From: an uncultured Subdoligranulum sp.
Lineage (GTDB): Bacteria > Bacillota > Clostridia > Oscillospirales > Ruminococcaceae
Assembly (NCBI RefSeq): GCF_963931595.1
Contig: NZ_OZ007030.1
Span: 2,720,481-2,784,480, forward strand
Length of the DNA stretch: 64,000 nt
Direction: 5' to 3'
A program made the translations under genes and the position numbers. The notes beneath the pieces are model-generated. The model did no database searches and was not told the DNA's origin. It saw only the letters and a list, made by a program, of their open reading frames with translations. Positions within the stretch are counted from its first letter, which is position 1. Each line of letters starts with the position of its first letter. Shown here piece by piece: positions 27,455 to 39,322 of this stretch.

Positions 27455-27486
27455 CGGTTTGTGGGGTAATGAAAGGGGTTATGTGT

Positions 27487-29202
27487 ATGTACAACTCGGC
27501 AGACGTTACATGGACACTGGTTGCGGCGTTCATGGTCTTCTTCATGCAGGCAGGCTTCGCCCTTTGCGAAGCGGGCCTGACCCGTGCCAAGAATACCGGC
27601 AATATTCTGATGAAGAATATGATGGATTTCTGTATCGGCACGCCCTGCTACTGGCTGGTTGGCTTCGGTGTGATGTTTGCGGGCACCGGCGCCTTCATCG
27701 GCGGTTTTGATCCGTTCATCCAGGGCAGCTACGATTTCGGCGGCCTGCCGCTGTGGGTCTACGTGGTGTTCCAGACTGTGTTCTGCGCCACCGCCGCCAC
27801 CATCGTTTCCGGCTCCATGGCAGAGCGCACCAAGTTCAGCGCCTACTGCCTCTACTCTGCGGCCATCAGCCTCATCGTCTACCCCATCTCCGGCCACTGG
27901 ATCTGGGGCGGAGGCTGGCTGAGCCAGCTGGGCTTCCATGACTTCGCCGGTTCCACGGCCGTCCACTTCGTCGGCGGCGTCACCGCCTGCCTGGGCGCCT
28001 GGATGCTGGGTCCCCGTATCGGCAAGTACGGCAAGGACGGCAGGGCCCGCGCCATCCCCGGCCACAACCTGACCGCCATGGCCCTCGGCGTCTTCATCCT
28101 CTGGTTCTGCTGGTTCGGCTTCAACGGCGGCTCCACCGTCTCCATGACCGGTGACGACACCATGGTCTCCGCCGGCCTCATCTGCTTCAACACCAACCTG
28201 GCCGCCGCCCTCGCCACCTGTGCGGCCCTCATCACCACCTGGGTGCGCTACGGCAAGCCCGATGTCTCCCTGACCTTCAACGGCGCGCTGGCCGGCCTCG
28301 TCGCCATCACCGCCGGCTGCGACATGGTTGACCCGTTCGGCGCTGCCATCATCGGCATCGTTGCCGGTGTCCTGGTGGTCTTCTCCGTGGAATTCTTCGA
28401 CAACGTGGCCAAGATCGATGACCCCGTCGGTGCGGTCTCCGTCCACTGCGTCAACGGTGCCTGGGGCACTCTCGCCACCGGCCTGTTCTCCACCAGCCAG
28501 GGCGTCTTCTACGGCCACGGCTTCACCTTCTTCGGCATCCAGGTGCTGGGCGTTGTCAGCGTTCTGGTCTGGGTCCTGGTTGCCATGTTCATCATCTTCA
28601 CCCTCATCAAGAAGACCGTCGGCCTGCGCGTCACCCAGCAGGAAGAGATCGACGGCCTGGATATGCATGAACACGGCCTGGCCAGCGCTTACGCCGGCTT
28701 CGCCATCAGCGACGCTACTTACGCCGAACTGGACGTGAACGAAAACACCGACCTGGGCGAGGAGGATCTCGCCAAGGCCAGCCCCGCCCAGGTGGCGGCG
28801 GCCGTCAAGGTCCAGAAGGAGGCTCCGCTGCCTGCTGATCTGGACAGCGGTATGCACAAGGTTTCCATCATCGTCCAGCTGGCCAAGTTCGACGCCCTGA
28901 AACAGGCGCTGAACAAGGTGGGCGTCACCGGCATGACCGTCACCCAGGTCATGGGCTGCGGCCTCCAGAAGGGCAGCGGCGAGAAATACCGCGGCGCCGA
29001 AGTGGATGCCACTTTGCTGCCCAAGGTCAAGGTGGAAGTGGTCATCAGCAAGATCCCCGTGGAGACCATCATCGACGCGGCCACCAAGGCGCTGTACACC
29101 GGTCATATCGGCGACGGCAAGATCTTCGTCTACAACGTGGCGAAGGTTGTCAAGGTCCGCACCGGCGAGCAGGACTACGCGGCCCTGCAGGATGTGGAGT
29201 AA
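27487..29202 (+). CDS. amt: Ammonium transporter fused to a PII signalling domain
   Basis: A 571-residue fusion. Residues 1 to about 400 are a complete Amt/MEP channel: eleven hydrophobic segments, with YNSADVTWTLVAAFMVFFMQ at the start and the family motifs DFAGSTAVHFVGG and VHCVNGAWGTLATG. After a cytoplasmic linker (about 400-455) comes a full GlnK/PII domain (about 456-571), starting MHKVSIIVQLAKFDAL. It keeps the T-loop tyrosine region KYRGAE, LPKVKVEVV and the ATP/2-oxoglutarate-site GDGKIFV. PII normally plugs Amt from the cytosol in response to nitrogen status; here it would be tethered. Start ATG 27487 has AAAGGGG at 8 bases; ATGs at 27469 and 27481 are too close to ribosome sites. 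Confidence 0.93.
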   Translation: MYNSADVTWTLVAAFMVFFMQAGFALCEAGLTRAKNTGNILMKNMMDFCIGTPCYWLVGFGVMFAGTGAFIGGFDPFIQGSYDFGGLPLWVYVVFQTVFCATAATIVSGSMAERTKFSAYCLYSAAISLIVYPISGHWIWGGGWLSQLGFHDFAGSTAVHFVGGVTACLGAWMLGPRIGKYGKDGRARAIPGHNLTAMALGVFILWFCWFGFNGGSTVSMTGDDTMVSAGLICFNTNLAAALATCAALITTWVRYGKPDVSLTFNGALAGLVAITAGCDMVDPFGAAIIGIVAGVLVVFSVEFFDNVAKIDDPVGAVSVHCVNGAWGTLATGLFSTSQGVFYGHGFTFFGIQVLGVVSVLVWVLVAMFIIFTLIKKTVGLRVTQQEEIDGLDMHEHGLASAYAGFAISDATYAELDVNENTDLGEEDLAKASPAQVAAAVKVQKEAPLPADLDSGMHKVSIIVQLAKFDALKQALNKVGVTGMTVTQVMGCGLQKGSGEKYRGAEVDATLLPKVKVEVVISKIPVETIIDAATKALYTGHIGDGKIFVYNVAKVVKVRTGEQDYAALQDVE

Positions 29203-31303: not shown

Positions 31304-32220
31304 CCACCGGTCGCTACGCACCCAGCCCCAGCGGACGGATGCACCTGGGGAATCTGCTCTGCTGTCTGCTGGCCTGGCTCAGTGCCAAAAGCCAGGGCGG
31401 TCAGGTGCTGCTGCGCATCGAGGACCTGGACACCCTGCGGTGTCCCCGGGTCTACGCCGATGCCATCATCGACGATCTGCAGTGGCTGGGCCTGGCCGCC
31501 GATGGCCCCGAACCGCCCCTCTACCAGAGCGAGAGGTCGGAAATTTACCAGTATTATTATAACAAGCTGGCCGACCGGGGGCTGGTCTATCCCTGCTTTT
31601 GCAGCCGCAGCCAGCTCCACGCCGCCAGCGCCCCCCACCGCAGCGATGGCCAGGTGGTCTACGCCGGCACCTGCCGGAATCTGACGCCCGAACAGGTGGC
31701 CGAAAAGGCGAAGACCCGCGCCCCCGCCTGGCGGGTGCAGGTGCCCGACGAGGTCATCGGCTTCACCGACGGCCACATGGGCTATTATGCCGAAAATCTC
31801 GCCCGGGACTGCGGCGACTTCTACCTGCGCCGGGCGGACGGCGTGTTCGCCTACCAGCTGGCTGTCGTCGTGGACGACGCCCTCATGGGGGTCACCGAGG
31901 TGGTGCGGGGCAGTGACCTGCTCTCCAGCACGCCGCGGCAGCTCTGGCTCTACCGGGAACTGGGCCTGACGGCCCCCCGCTTTTACCACCTGCCCCTGCT
32001 GCTGGCCGCCGACGGACGGCGGCTCTCCAAGCGGGACGGCGACCAGAGCCTCGAACACCTGCGGGCAAAGTATGCCCCCGAGGAAGTGGTGGGCAAACTG
32101 GCCTACGCCTGCGGCTTGCAGGACGCACCCCGCCCCGCCGCCCCGGCGGACCTGGTGGCGGATTTCAGCTGGGGGCGGGTGCCAAAACATGACATCCTTT
32201 TGCCGGAAAACCTGTTTTAA
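31300..32220 (+). CDS. gluQ: Glutamyl-Q tRNA(Asp) synthetase-like protein (truncated GluRS paralogue)
   Basis: A 306-residue class I synthetase core lacking an anticodon-binding domain. Known role of GluQ-RS: activation of glutamate and its transfer to queuosine in tRNA-Asp. Seen: the HIGH-type motif APSPSGRMHLGN (about 6-17), RIEDLDTLR, zinc ligands in PCFCSRSQL and the later CR pair, and the KMSKS-type loop RRLSKRDGDQSL (about 243-254). It overlaps the M18 gene by 4 bases at the start codon. No queuosine biosynthesis genes are present in the window, so the queuosine role rests on family membership. The zinc-site Cys and Tyr pattern supports GluQ-RS rather than a GltX fragment. Confidence 0.88.
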   Translation: MTTGRYAPSPSGRMHLGNLLCCLLAWLSAKSQGGQVLLRIEDLDTLRCPRVYADAIIDDLQWLGLAADGPEPPLYQSERSEIYQYYYNKLADRGLVYPCFCSRSQLHAASAPHRSDGQVVYAGTCRNLTPEQVAEKAKTRAPAWRVQVPDEVIGFTDGHMGYYAENLARDCGDFYLRRADGVFAYQLAVVVDDALMGVTEVVRGSDLLSSTPRQLWLYRELGLTAPRFYHLPLLLAADGRRLSKRDGDQSLEHLRAKYAPEEVVGKLAYACGLQDAPRPAAPADLVADFSWGRVPKHDILLPENLF

Positions 32221-32274
32221 TGGGGGAAAGGGCTGACAAACCGCCCCCTCTTGCAGAAAAAGGAGTTCTCCACG

Positions 32275-34842
32275 ATGCAACGCTATGAAATCACCGGCAT
32301 GAGCTGCGCCGCTTGTGCCAGTCATCTGGAAAAAGCCGTGGCGGCGGTGCCCGGCGTGCAGTCGGTGTCGGTCAGCCTGCTGACCAACTCGATGCAGGTG
32401 GAAACCGCCCCCGATGCCGACGAAACCGCCCTGCAAAAACGCATCTGCCGGGCGGTGGAATCCGCCGGCTACGGTGCGGTGCCCGCCGACGATACCCTGG
32501 ACGGCGCCCTGGACGACACCGATACCCCCCGCCTGAAAAAGCGGCTGGTGCACAGCCTCTGCTTCCTGGTGCCGCTGATGTACCTTTCCATGGGGCATAT
32601 GATCGGTCTGCCGCTGCCGCCTTTCCTGGAAGGGGGCGGGGCCGGGGCGCTGGTCTACGGCCTTTTGCAGCTGGCGCTGACGCTGCCGGTCTGCTGGATC
32701 AACCGGGCATTCTTTATCAGCGGCTGGAACGGCCTGCGCACCAAAGCCCCCGGCATGGACGCCCTGGTCTCCCTCGGCGCCGGGGCGGCGCTGGTCTACG
32801 GCGTCTTTGCTTTGATTATGATGGCGGTGGGGCTGGGCGCCGGGGACGAGGCCATGGTGCTCCAGTACCGCCACGACCTCTACTTTGAGTCGGCGGCCAT
32901 GATTTTAACGCTCATCACGGTGGGCAAGACGCTGGAAGCCTACAGCAAGGGCCGCACCACCGATGCCCTCAAGAGCCTTATGCAGCTCACCCCCCAGACC
33001 GCCACGGTATTGCGGGACGGCAAGGCCGTCACGGTGCCGGTGAGCGAGGTGGCGGTGGGGGACATCTTCTTCGTCAAGCCCGGCGAGGCCGTCCCGGTGG
33101 ACGGCACGGTGGCGGAGGGCGTGTCCAGCGTCAACGAGGCCGCCCTCACCGGCGAGAGCATGCCGGTGGACAAGTTCCCCGGTTCCCCGGTGAGCGCCGC
33201 CACCATCAACCAGAACGGCGCCCTGGCCTGCCGGGCCGAGCGCGTGGGCCAGGATACGACGCTCTCCCAGGTCATCCGTCTGGTGCGGGACGCCGCTGCC
33301 ACCAAGGCGCCCCTGGCCAAGACCGCCGACAAGGTATCGGCCATCTTTGTGCCTGCCGTCATCGCCATCGCGGTGGTGACCTTCCTGGTCTGGCTGCTGC
33401 TGGGCCAGACCCTCGCCTGGGCGCTGGCCCGGGGCATCTCGGTGCTGGTCATCAGCTGTCCCTGCGCTCTGGGCCTTGCCACCCCGGTGGCCATCATGGT
33501 GGGCAGCGGCGTGGGCGCCAAACACGGCATTCTTTTTAAAACCGCCGCCAGTCTTGAAACCACCGGCTACACCGACACGGTGCTGCTGGACAAGACCGGC
33601 ACCATCACCACCGGCGAGCCCAGTGTGGTGCAGATCGTGGGCACCCGCCGCGTGCCGGAAAAGTTCCTGCTCAGCATGGCGGCGGGGCTGGAACTGCAGA
33701 GCGAACATCCCCTGGCCCGGGCGATCCTCCAGCGGGCCCAGGACGACAAGATCAAGTACACCGCCGTGGCCAACTTTGAGGCGGTGCCCGGCCAGGGACT
33801 GCGGGGCAAGGTGGCCGGCAAGGTCATTGCGGGCGGCAACGCCGATTTCATCCGCACCACCTGCGTGCTGCCCCCCGACCTGGAGGAAGCCGGCGAGAAG
33901 ATGAGCAAAAACGGCATCACGCCGCTCTATTTCTCGCTGGCGGGCAGCCCGGCGGGCGTCATCGGTGTCTCCGACGTGGTGAAAAAGACCTCGGCGGCGG
34001 CCATCGCCCGCATGAAGGCCCTGGGCCTCAACGTGGTGCTGCTCACCGGCGACAACGAAGCCACCGCCCGGCACATCGGCTCCATGGTGGGCCTGGACGC
34101 CGGCCATGTGGTGGCGGGGGTGCTGCCCGCCGGCAAGGAGGCGGAAGTCCGCCGCTGGCAGAAAAAGGGCCGGGTGGCCATGGTGGGGGACGGCATCAAC
34201 GATGCCCCCGCCCTGACCCGGGCCGAGACCGGCATTGCCATCGGCGCCGGGGCGGACGTGGCCCTGGATGCCGCCGACGTGGTGCTGGTGCGCAGCGACC
34301 TGGAAGACGTGCCGGCCGCGGTGCGGCTCTCCCGGGCCGTGGTGCGCAACATCCACGAAAACCTCTTCTGGGCGTTTTTCTACAACGCCATCTGCATTCC
34401 GCTGGCAGCGGGCATCTTCACGGGGCTGGGCATTACCCTGAATCCCATGATTGCCGCGGCGGCCATGAGCCTTTCCAGCGTCTGTGTGGTGGCCAACGCC
34501 CTGCGGCTCAACACCTTTGATCCCCGCGACGCCGGTCACGACGCGCCGCCCAAGCACAAGGCACCGTCCCGCCAGGCCCCGGCCTGCACGGAGGCCTGCC
34601 CGGTACGACCCCAACAGGAGGTAAAAACCATGACGAAAACCATGCATATTGAGGGCATGATGTGTGCCCACTGCGAAGCCACCGTGAAGAAGGCGCTGGA
34701 GGCGCTGGACGGGGTGGCCTCTGCCGATGTCAGCCACGAGGCGGGCACGGCGGTGGTGACCCTGACCCATGCGGTGGACGATGCTGCCCTGAAGGCCGCG
34801 GTGGAGGCAAAGGACTACACCGTCACGGGCATCGAAGGATGA
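32275..34842 (+). CDS. copA: Copper-exporting P1B-type ATPase with a C-terminal CopZ domain
   Basis: An 855-residue pump that exports Cu(I) from the cytosol. Order: N-terminal heavy-metal domain with GMSCAAC (about 6-12), eight membrane helices, actuator TGES, transmembrane copper site SCPCALGLATP (about 395-405), phosphorylation motif DKTGTITTG (about 439-447), HP locus SEHPLAR and the hinge GDGINDAP (about 638-645). After the last helix a Pro/Lys linker leads to a second heavy-metal domain with IEGMMCAHC (about 794). That domain can also be made alone from an internal start (see next entry). AAAAAGGAG precedes ATG 32275. Operator sites for a copper regulator were not recognised. Confidence 0.96.
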   Translation: MQRYEITGMSCAACASHLEKAVAAVPGVQSVSVSLLTNSMQVETAPDADETALQKRICRAVESAGYGAVPADDTLDGALDDTDTPRLKKRLVHSLCFLVPLMYLSMGHMIGLPLPPFLEGGGAGALVYGLLQLALTLPVCWINRAFFISGWNGLRTKAPGMDALVSLGAGAALVYGVFALIMMAVGLGAGDEAMVLQYRHDLYFESAAMILTLITVGKTLEAYSKGRTTDALKSLMQLTPQTATVLRDGKAVTVPVSEVAVGDIFFVKPGEAVPVDGTVAEGVSSVNEAALTGESMPVDKFPGSPVSAATINQNGALACRAERVGQDTTLSQVIRLVRDAAATKAPLAKTADKVSAIFVPAVIAIAVVTFLVWLLLGQTLAWALARGISVLVISCPCALGLATPVAIMVGSGVGAKHGILFKTAASLETTGYTDTVLLDKTGTITTGEPSVVQIVGTRRVPEKFLLSMAAGLELQSEHPLARAILQRAQDDKIKYTAVANFEAVPGQGLRGKVAGKVIAGGNADFIRTTCVLPPDLEEAGEKMSKNGITPLYFSLAGSPAGVIGVSDVVKKTSAAAIARMKALGLNVVLLTGDNEATARHIGSMVGLDAGHVVAGVLPAGKEAEVRRWQKKGRVAMVGDGINDAPALTRAETGIAIGAGADVALDAADVVLVRSDLEDVPAAVRLSRAVVRNIHENLFWAFFYNAICIPLAAGIFTGLGITLNPMIAAAAMSLSSVCVVANALRLNTFDPRDAGHDAPPKHKAPSRQAPACTEACPVRPQQEVKTMTKTMHIEGMMCAHCEATVKKALEALDGVASADVSHEAGTAVVTLTHAVDDAALKAAVEAKDYTVTGIEG
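34630..34842 (+). CDS. copZ: Copper chaperone CopZ from an internal in-frame start in copA
   Basis: The last 70 codons of copA form a complete CopZ-type HMA domain, beginning MTKTMHIEGMMCAHCEATVK. Directly before this ATG, inside the copA reading frame, is a full AGGAGGT site with 7-base spacing. Inference: ribosomes can start here and release free CopZ, the soluble carrier that loads copper onto CopA, in addition to the fused form. The layout looks like two adjacent genes whose stop codon was lost. Known parallel: E. coli copA makes a short chaperone from the same message by frameshifting, though from its 5' end. Its stop overlaps the acylphosphatase start. Confidence 0.75.
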   Translation: MTKTMHIEGMMCAHCEATVKKALEALDGVASADVSHEAGTAVVTLTHAVDDAALKAAVEAKDYTVTGIEG

Positions 34843-35123
34843 GCGCGGTACGGCGGCGCTGGCGGTTCGAGGGCCGGGTGCAGGGGGTAGGGTTCCGGTA
34901 TTTTTCCTCCTGTGCGGCCCAGAATCTGGGCCTGACGGGCTGGGTGGCCAACAACTGGGACGGCAGCGTCACCCTGGAGGCCCAGGGCGAACCGGCACAG
35001 CTGGACAGGCTGGTGCCCATGATCGAGCGGACCTGCCGCTGGGGGCGCATCGAGAACATGACGGTGAAGAACATCCCCCTGGAGGAACACGAGTACGGTT
35101 TTTCGGAGCGCAGCGGGGACTGA
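34839..35123 (+). CDS. acyP: Acylphosphatase
   Basis: A 94-residue enzyme with the ferredoxin-like acylphosphatase fold, hydrolysing acyl phosphates such as carbamoyl or acetyl phosphate. Signature GRVQGVGFRYF (about 12-22) includes the catalytic Arg, and GWVANNWDGSVTLEAQG (about 34-50) supplies the catalytic Asn. Start ATG 34839 overlaps the copA stop codon (ATGA), giving translational coupling. Followed by a family A repeat. Confidence 0.95.
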   Translation: MSAVRRRWRFEGRVQGVGFRYFSSCAAQNLGLTGWVANNWDGSVTLEAQGEPAQLDRLVPMIERTCRWGRIENMTVKNIPLEEHEYGFSERSGD

Positions 35124-35160
35124 GTTACTTTCTTTATAAAGAAAGTAACCAAAGAAATTT
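35124..35160. repeat. Family A palindrome repeat
   Basis: GTTACTTTCTTTATAAAGAA palindrome with its tail AAAGAAATTTTAACC immediately after the acylphosphatase stop. Confidence 0.8.
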
Positions 35161-35168
35161 TAACCGAT

Positions 35169-35335
35169 TGTCCGGGAGGGAGCGGTAGAGGCAAAGTCCG
35201 CGCGCTGCCTTCATCGGGCGGCAACGGTAAGGCTTCTTTGCAAAGAAGGAACCGAAGAAACTCCAACCACATGTCCGGGGAAGGGCAGCGGCGGCAAGAC
35301 CCGCGCGCTGGCTTCATCGGGCGGCAGCGGCAACA
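35169..35335. repeat. Imperfect tandem repeat (about 103 bp) with a family A half-palindrome
   Basis: Two copies of a unit beginning TGTCCGGG and containing CGCGCGCTG, CTTCATCGGGCGGCA start at 35169 and 35272. The first is followed by CTTCTTTGCAAAGAAGGAAC and the CGAAGAAACTCCAACC tail. No gene. Confidence 0.75.
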
Positions 35336-35360
35336 TCACAACCCCTTACCGGGATACCGC

Positions 35361-35425
35361 CTGTAGGGCGGGGTCTTGACCCCGCCGTGTTCCCGGAACC
35401 GCCCTCCCGCGGGGGAATCCATTAC
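35361..35425. repeat. Family B repeat, right half divergent
   Basis: Left hairpin GGCGGGGTCTTGACCCCGCC is intact; the right hairpin is reduced to a CCCGCGGGGG stretch. Confidence 0.7.

Positions 35426-37529: not shown

Positions 37530-39322
<1,793 letters not shown>

Follow-up and report, generated by a model that had tools for sequence, protein, structure and literature searches.

A conserved internal start site in Clostridia copA predicted to yield a free CopZ-like chaperone beside the copper pump

CopA(Z) of Escherichia coli is an N-terminal domain that arises from frameshifting followed by termination. Programmed −1 frameshifting on E. coli copA is described as the source of both products, the pump and CopA(Z) (PMC9548414, on Meydan et al. 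2017 and Drees et al. 2017). Separate copA–copZ operons are known from Enterococcus hirae and Bacillus subtilis, and a review describes the C-terminal copper site of A. fulgidus CopA as regulatory (PMC7558416). In-frame internal starts are documented in other settings, among them the production of Cas11 from cas8/cas10 (PMC11899642), the short form of SpaO (PMC13059759) and the two-polypeptide phage endolysins (PMC9430671).

The locus described here lies in a window of 64,000 nucleotides, the whole stretch of DNA that was analyzed, from an uncultured Subdoligranulum sp. It comprises a copA gene, a start site nested within it and the following features, all on the forward strand.

32259–32265, +, Shine–Dalgarno sequence of copA, AAAGGAG, read directly (duplex energy −8.4 kcal/mol)
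32275–34842, +, copA, assigned from the ORF, the Shine–Dalgarno sequence, Pfam and NCBIfam matches and the CPC, YN and MxxSS motifs in alignment; the predicted product is a P1B-1 type Cu(+) ATPase of 855 aa with an N-terminal HMA domain, pump core, linker and C-terminal HMA domain
32287–32472, +, N-terminal HMA domain of CopA, with GMSCAAC (PF00403, 58.7 bits)
34510–34629, +, linker from the last membrane helices to the C-terminal HMA domain, differing between relatives in both length and sequence
34616–34622, +, internal Shine–Dalgarno sequence AGGAGGT for the nested copZ, from direct reading and comparison
34630–34842, +, putative nested copZ, from an in-frame ATG to the TGA it has in common with copA; a CopZ-like HMA protein of 70 aa with GMMCAHC
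34639–34818, +, C-terminal HMA domain common to full-length CopA and the nested CopZ (PF00403, 59.7 bits)
34839–35123, +, acylphosphatase gene, 94 aa (PF00708, 5e-21), overlapping the copA/copZ stop (ATGA)
39036–39053, +, 3′ end of the 16S rRNA with the anti-Shine–Dalgarno sequence GGCTGGATCACCTCCTTT

The copA frame contains no stop between the ATG at 32275 and the TGA at 34840–34842. Its product matches PF00122, PF00702 and PF00403, with the C-terminal HMA domain at residues 789–848 (Pfam), scores 564 bits against TIGR01511 (cut-off 397) and carries the motifs CPCALGLATP, FFYN and MSLSS. By these domains, scores and motifs it meets the criteria for a predicted Cu(+)-exporting P1B-1 ATPase (CopA), the metal specificity being deduced from motifs and profiles only. 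Against the E. coli CopA equivalog NF007952 it reaches 590.5 bits, under the 1316-bit threshold, and we classify it as a putative CopA-type pump outside that equivalog.

The original prediction placed a perfect AGGAGGT, followed at 7 bases by an in-frame ATG, ahead of the C-terminal domain of CopA, and a 70-residue product within 34616–34842. The sequence confirms each of these elements to the base: the gap between the AGGAGGT and the ATG at 34630–34632 is 7 bases, and the ATG is in the copA frame, 8 codons upstream of the GMMCAHC motif. The internal start thus combines a start codon, proper Shine–Dalgarno spacing and complementarity to the 3′ end of the host 16S rRNA, with a pairing energy of −11.7 kcal/mol that is stronger than that of copA's own Shine–Dalgarno sequence. 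Taken alone, the nested product reaches 60.5 bits with PF00403, whose cut-off is 24.8, and shows sequence matches to the solved CopZ structures 6ff2, 1k0v and 2qif. With a single HMA fold and an MxCxxC motif, it satisfies the criteria for a predicted CopZ-like metallochaperone. Against the named CopZ equivalogs NF047957, NF033795 and NF033794, whose curated cut-offs are 85–95, its best score is 55.1 bits, and it appears to be CopZ-like while belonging to none of these three named subfamilies.

We propose that ribosomes starting at 32275 would make the 855-residue Cu(+) export ATPase with a tethered HMA end, that ribosomes starting separately at 34630 would make only its final 70 residues, a CopZ-like copper chaperone free in the cytosol, and that both products would terminate at the one TGA. 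The amount of free CopZ would be set by its own strong Shine–Dalgarno sequence, and since this is the stronger of the two, at −11.7 versus −8.4 kcal/mol, the chaperone may exceed the pump. No sigma-70-like site for an internal promoter was found in 32000–35400, which is weak evidence only. Although there are no expression data, no detected protein and no mutant, we hold it to be highly probable, from the comparisons below, that copA contains a conserved and selected internal start giving free CopZ beside the pump. Initiation in vivo, and the role of the product as a soluble Cu(I) chaperone feeding CopA, are inferred.

This arrangement resembles that of E. coli in that one copA gene would be the source of both a Cu(+) pump and an untethered single-HMA copper chaperone. 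It differs in that the C-terminal domain would serve as the chaperone, through a second, in-frame initiation, and in that the pump bears an extra C-terminal HMA domain. The view that this is a different solution from the E. coli frameshift is therefore supported, with a second in-frame initiation proposed in its place, again without expression data. The operons of E. hirae and B. subtilis encode the same two proteins, but in two genes. A. fulgidus CopA has the same fused domain layout, and the accessible part of the review mentions no internal start for it (PMC7558416). As in Cas11, SpaO and the endolysins, two co-terminal proteins would come from one ORF through an internal start and a common stop codon; those systems, however, do not belong to metal homeostasis, and the nested copZ differs from them in that its product is a full member of a protein family otherwise encoded by a gene of its own. 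Within the open-access literature, we found no published internal initiation, internal start or internal Shine–Dalgarno sequence for copA or for a Clostridia copA fusion, and we take the combination to be new for this reason. The mechanism is known and so is the product pair; it is the combination that is new, and its conservation is unusually broad. It would constitute a second independent bacterial route to a pump and a chaperone from one copA, one that uses the opposite end of the gene and a different translational mechanism.

The comparison covers 198 copA loci at three taxonomic levels: the genus, the family, with more than 100 genera represented, and the class. The loci were sampled by similarity to the window's CopA, which favors fused genes, and tests across loci carry no kinship correction except where a tree was used. 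A copA relative is present in all 35 genus genomes and all 148 family genomes searched. The C-terminal HMA domain is fused in frame in 176 of the 198 loci, and separate copA–copZ operons of the same class make up 13. The finding that would have counted against the original prediction, namely a fusion unique to this genome among relatives that mostly keep copA and copZ apart, is thus not what is observed. Whether relatives have a stop codon between the domains, as it also asked, receives a divided answer: most have none, and separate copA and copZ genes occur in other clades of the class. Other families of the class have split pairs, and stops between the pump and the C-terminal domain appear in searches of the class and phylum. 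This comparison, without ribosome profiling or protein detection, strongly supports the idea that a single gene supplies the fused pump as well as the free chaperone.

An ATG or GTG lies 7–10 codons before the GMxCxxC motif in 159 of the 176 fused relatives, mostly at 8, and in 154 it is accompanied by a Shine–Dalgarno match. We counted matches of at least 5 bases at a spacing of 4–11 bases, and the observed spacing is mostly 7 or 8. These counts are on the low side because loci with displaced starts, outside the 7–10 codon slot, were first scored as lacking a start; in L119, L123, L225, L246, L251, L253, L261 and L284 the start sits 6 or 12–14 codons before the motif. Almost all separate copZ genes likewise start 8–9 codons before the motif, as the internal start does. 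Applied to an independent collection of named organisms, this strict test retains 60 of 79 fused genes, and several of those it leaves out have a slightly displaced start. Members with the pattern include Ruminococcus flavefaciens, R. albus, a Faecalibacterium and Gemmiger formicilis, the window's closest named relative (79%). About a tenth of fused genes are without the internal site, which is therefore not indispensable. Fused copA genes with an internal Shine–Dalgarno sequence and start were also seen on three Treponema-labeled contigs (L264, L269 and L278; Spirochaetota, assembled genomes), which may reflect horizontal transfer or mis-binned Clostridia contigs.

Shine–Dalgarno matches of at least 5 bases accompany 97% of the internal sites; of the 3446 further Met codons that lie in frame in these genes, only 3.8% have one. 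The six-base Shine–Dalgarno sequences occur at 0.139 per gene and position at −18 to −8, compared with 0.0012 at −90 to −19 (mostly the same linker) and 0.0007 at −7 to +60, so that their density in the correct slot is ~100 times that of the flanks. The Met-codon background and this density rule out a chance match. The mean anti-Shine–Dalgarno duplex energy at the internal start equals that at copA's own start (−9.78 kcal/mol for each, n = 144), while other Met codons average −3.60 kcal/mol. We then recoded the eight upstream codons synonymously, following each gene's own codon usage. Matches of at least 5 bases were observed in 154 genes versus 73 expected (z = 15), those of at least 6 in 132 versus 35 and those of at least 7 in 94 versus 17.5, with z ranging from 15 to 23 over the three lengths. 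Together with the low density in the adjacent linker, this recoding excludes a K/E-rich linker composition as the cause.

On a tree of 197 CopA pump cores, the codon phase of the Shine–Dalgarno sequence has changed at least 27 times, and the element is therefore kept as RNA and not as amino acids. Within the genus, GGAG stays at the right distance though the residues vary (QEV, QEG, KEG, KEE, TEE, KGE and GGN), the peptides before the start being QEVKT, QEGKT, QQEVAA, KEGKA, KEEKA, TEEAT, KGETA and GGNTA. A GTG (Val) start with a Shine–Dalgarno sequence replaces ATG in four loci, and the six-base sequence is found in 132 of 157 genes with a start versus 4 of 19 without. Judged by the recoding, the density, the tree and the alignments, the site is conserved more than the protein sequence requires. 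Support for internal initiation accordingly comes from the class-wide fixed distance between Shine–Dalgarno sequence and start, the synonymous excess, the turnover of phase, the use of GTG as an alternative start and the loss of the Shine–Dalgarno sequence together with the start. What sequence and comparison establish is that the site exists, that it is conserved and that selection maintains it at the RNA level. RNA structure was dropped as support: the internal site appears unstructured relative to core windows (mean z +2.5), but the effect vanishes against dinucleotide shuffles (z 0.18), and the low structure is thus due to A-rich composition.

The alternative that survives best accepts the internal start and holds that only the free chaperone matters, the domain fused to the pump being a tolerated by-product. 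It is consistent with a start codon and Shine–Dalgarno sequence that are conserved next to a linker sequence that is not. The linker is 21–98 residues long and non-aligning, with the exception of one gene with extra HMA domains. If the fusion were merely tolerated, stops and frameshifts in so fast-changing a linker would be expected to be common, yet the frame is open in 176 of 198 loci; a split copZ at the site is confined to a few clades, and some genes retain the fusion without any internal start. We regard this explanation as unlikely. Because the frame stays open across a linker that changes length freely, we infer a use for the fused form as well, whether as tethered donor or as regulator, with less certainty than for the free form. 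In three loci (L086, L009 and L119), two to four HMA domains follow the pump core; an internal Shine–Dalgarno sequence and start are present only at the last of them in L086 and L119, and at none in L009.

Far less plausible is the idea that the site is a relic, left without a role when a copA and its downstream copZ were fused by loss of the copA stop. In its favor, separate operons exist in the same class (13 loci), the fused start lies where a free copZ start would be, and in L120 the copA stop falls exactly at the copZ Shine–Dalgarno sequence, forming an ordinary overlapping gene pair. A relic should decay, however, and the Shine–Dalgarno sequence instead exceeds the synonymous expectation and has been re-made in other codon phases behind linkers that do not align. 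Repeated recent fusion fails as an explanation, since the fused and not-fused states need only 8 changes over 197 rows. Least probable of all is an elongation pause, in which an SD-like sequence just past the last membrane helices aids insertion or folding of the pump core before the last domain and the Met is incidental: SD-like motifs within genes have been proposed to slow ribosomes, a proposal that is disputed, but a pause would leave unexplained the start codon at a fixed spacing of 7–8 bases, the GTG in place of ATG, the joint loss of Shine–Dalgarno sequence and start, and the ~100-fold rarity of such sequences elsewhere in −90 to +60. Shine–Dalgarno turnover, GTG use and joint loss fit translation initiation, as far as sequence can tell, and not a pause site or a relic.

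The gut Clostridia bacterium of the window and well over a hundred related genera have a copA with a second ribosome binding site and start at its last domain, and very probably make both products. We further think it likely, with less assurance than for the start itself, that internal initiation in copA is a main Clostridia route to CopZ, with the fused and free forms both selected, and that it is long-standing and class-wide. Standard annotation misses the nested copZ because the whole is treated as one CopA ORF. As the nested start is kept class-wide, free CopZ would be missing from the annotated proteomes of many Clostridia, and models of copper homeostasis that count genes would be wrong for them.

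Fused loci with enough flank have a separate copZ directly downstream in 4 of 19 cases if the start is absent and in 1 of 149 if it is present (Fisher p 6e-4), a comparison without kinship correction that draws on two lineages only. L024 and L027 have lost the internal start and carry a separate copZ immediately after copA, as does L249 of the named set. The copZ directly behind copA in these three loci and in L267 is of a distinct type (GMMCGMCE/GHCEAHVND); all four lack either the internal start or the fusion, a pattern suggesting that another chaperone has taken over. Genomes that have the internal start and genomes that lack it do not differ clearly in their total of other free HMA proteins. 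Downstream copZ matches at L040, L081 and L154 were discarded as spurious pattern matches without a usable start.

The window's genome has a second copA (L205, L002; G000:C1:247375-250216) with a C-terminal HMA domain and no good internal start, only a weak GGAGG/GTG. Directly after it comes a separate copZ (GMHCAGC), which has an AGGAGG and an ATG of its own, so this genome would have a free chaperone anyway; in the relatives of this copA (L017, L064), too, copZ is a separate gene and the internal start is absent. The nested domain carries an MxCxHC motif and the separate copZ a CxGC motif, which the review assigns to CopZ2-like and CopZ1-like chaperones, respectively (PMC7558416). That the two serve different copper pools in this genome is speculation.

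Elsewhere in the window, a single ORF (27469–29202, + strand) encodes an ammonium transporter joined to a P-II (GlnK-like) regulator. The Met at 28852 before the P-II domain has no Shine–Dalgarno sequence at proper spacing, and an AAGGAGG lies ~30 bases upstream.

An acylphosphatase motif adjoins copA in 24 loci, nearly all from the window's genus; the gene is a genus-level neighbor that the nested gene does not need. Acylphosphatases cleave acyl phosphates, and because the P-type ATPase intermediate has this chemical form, a functional tie between the acylphosphatase and the pump is conceivable.
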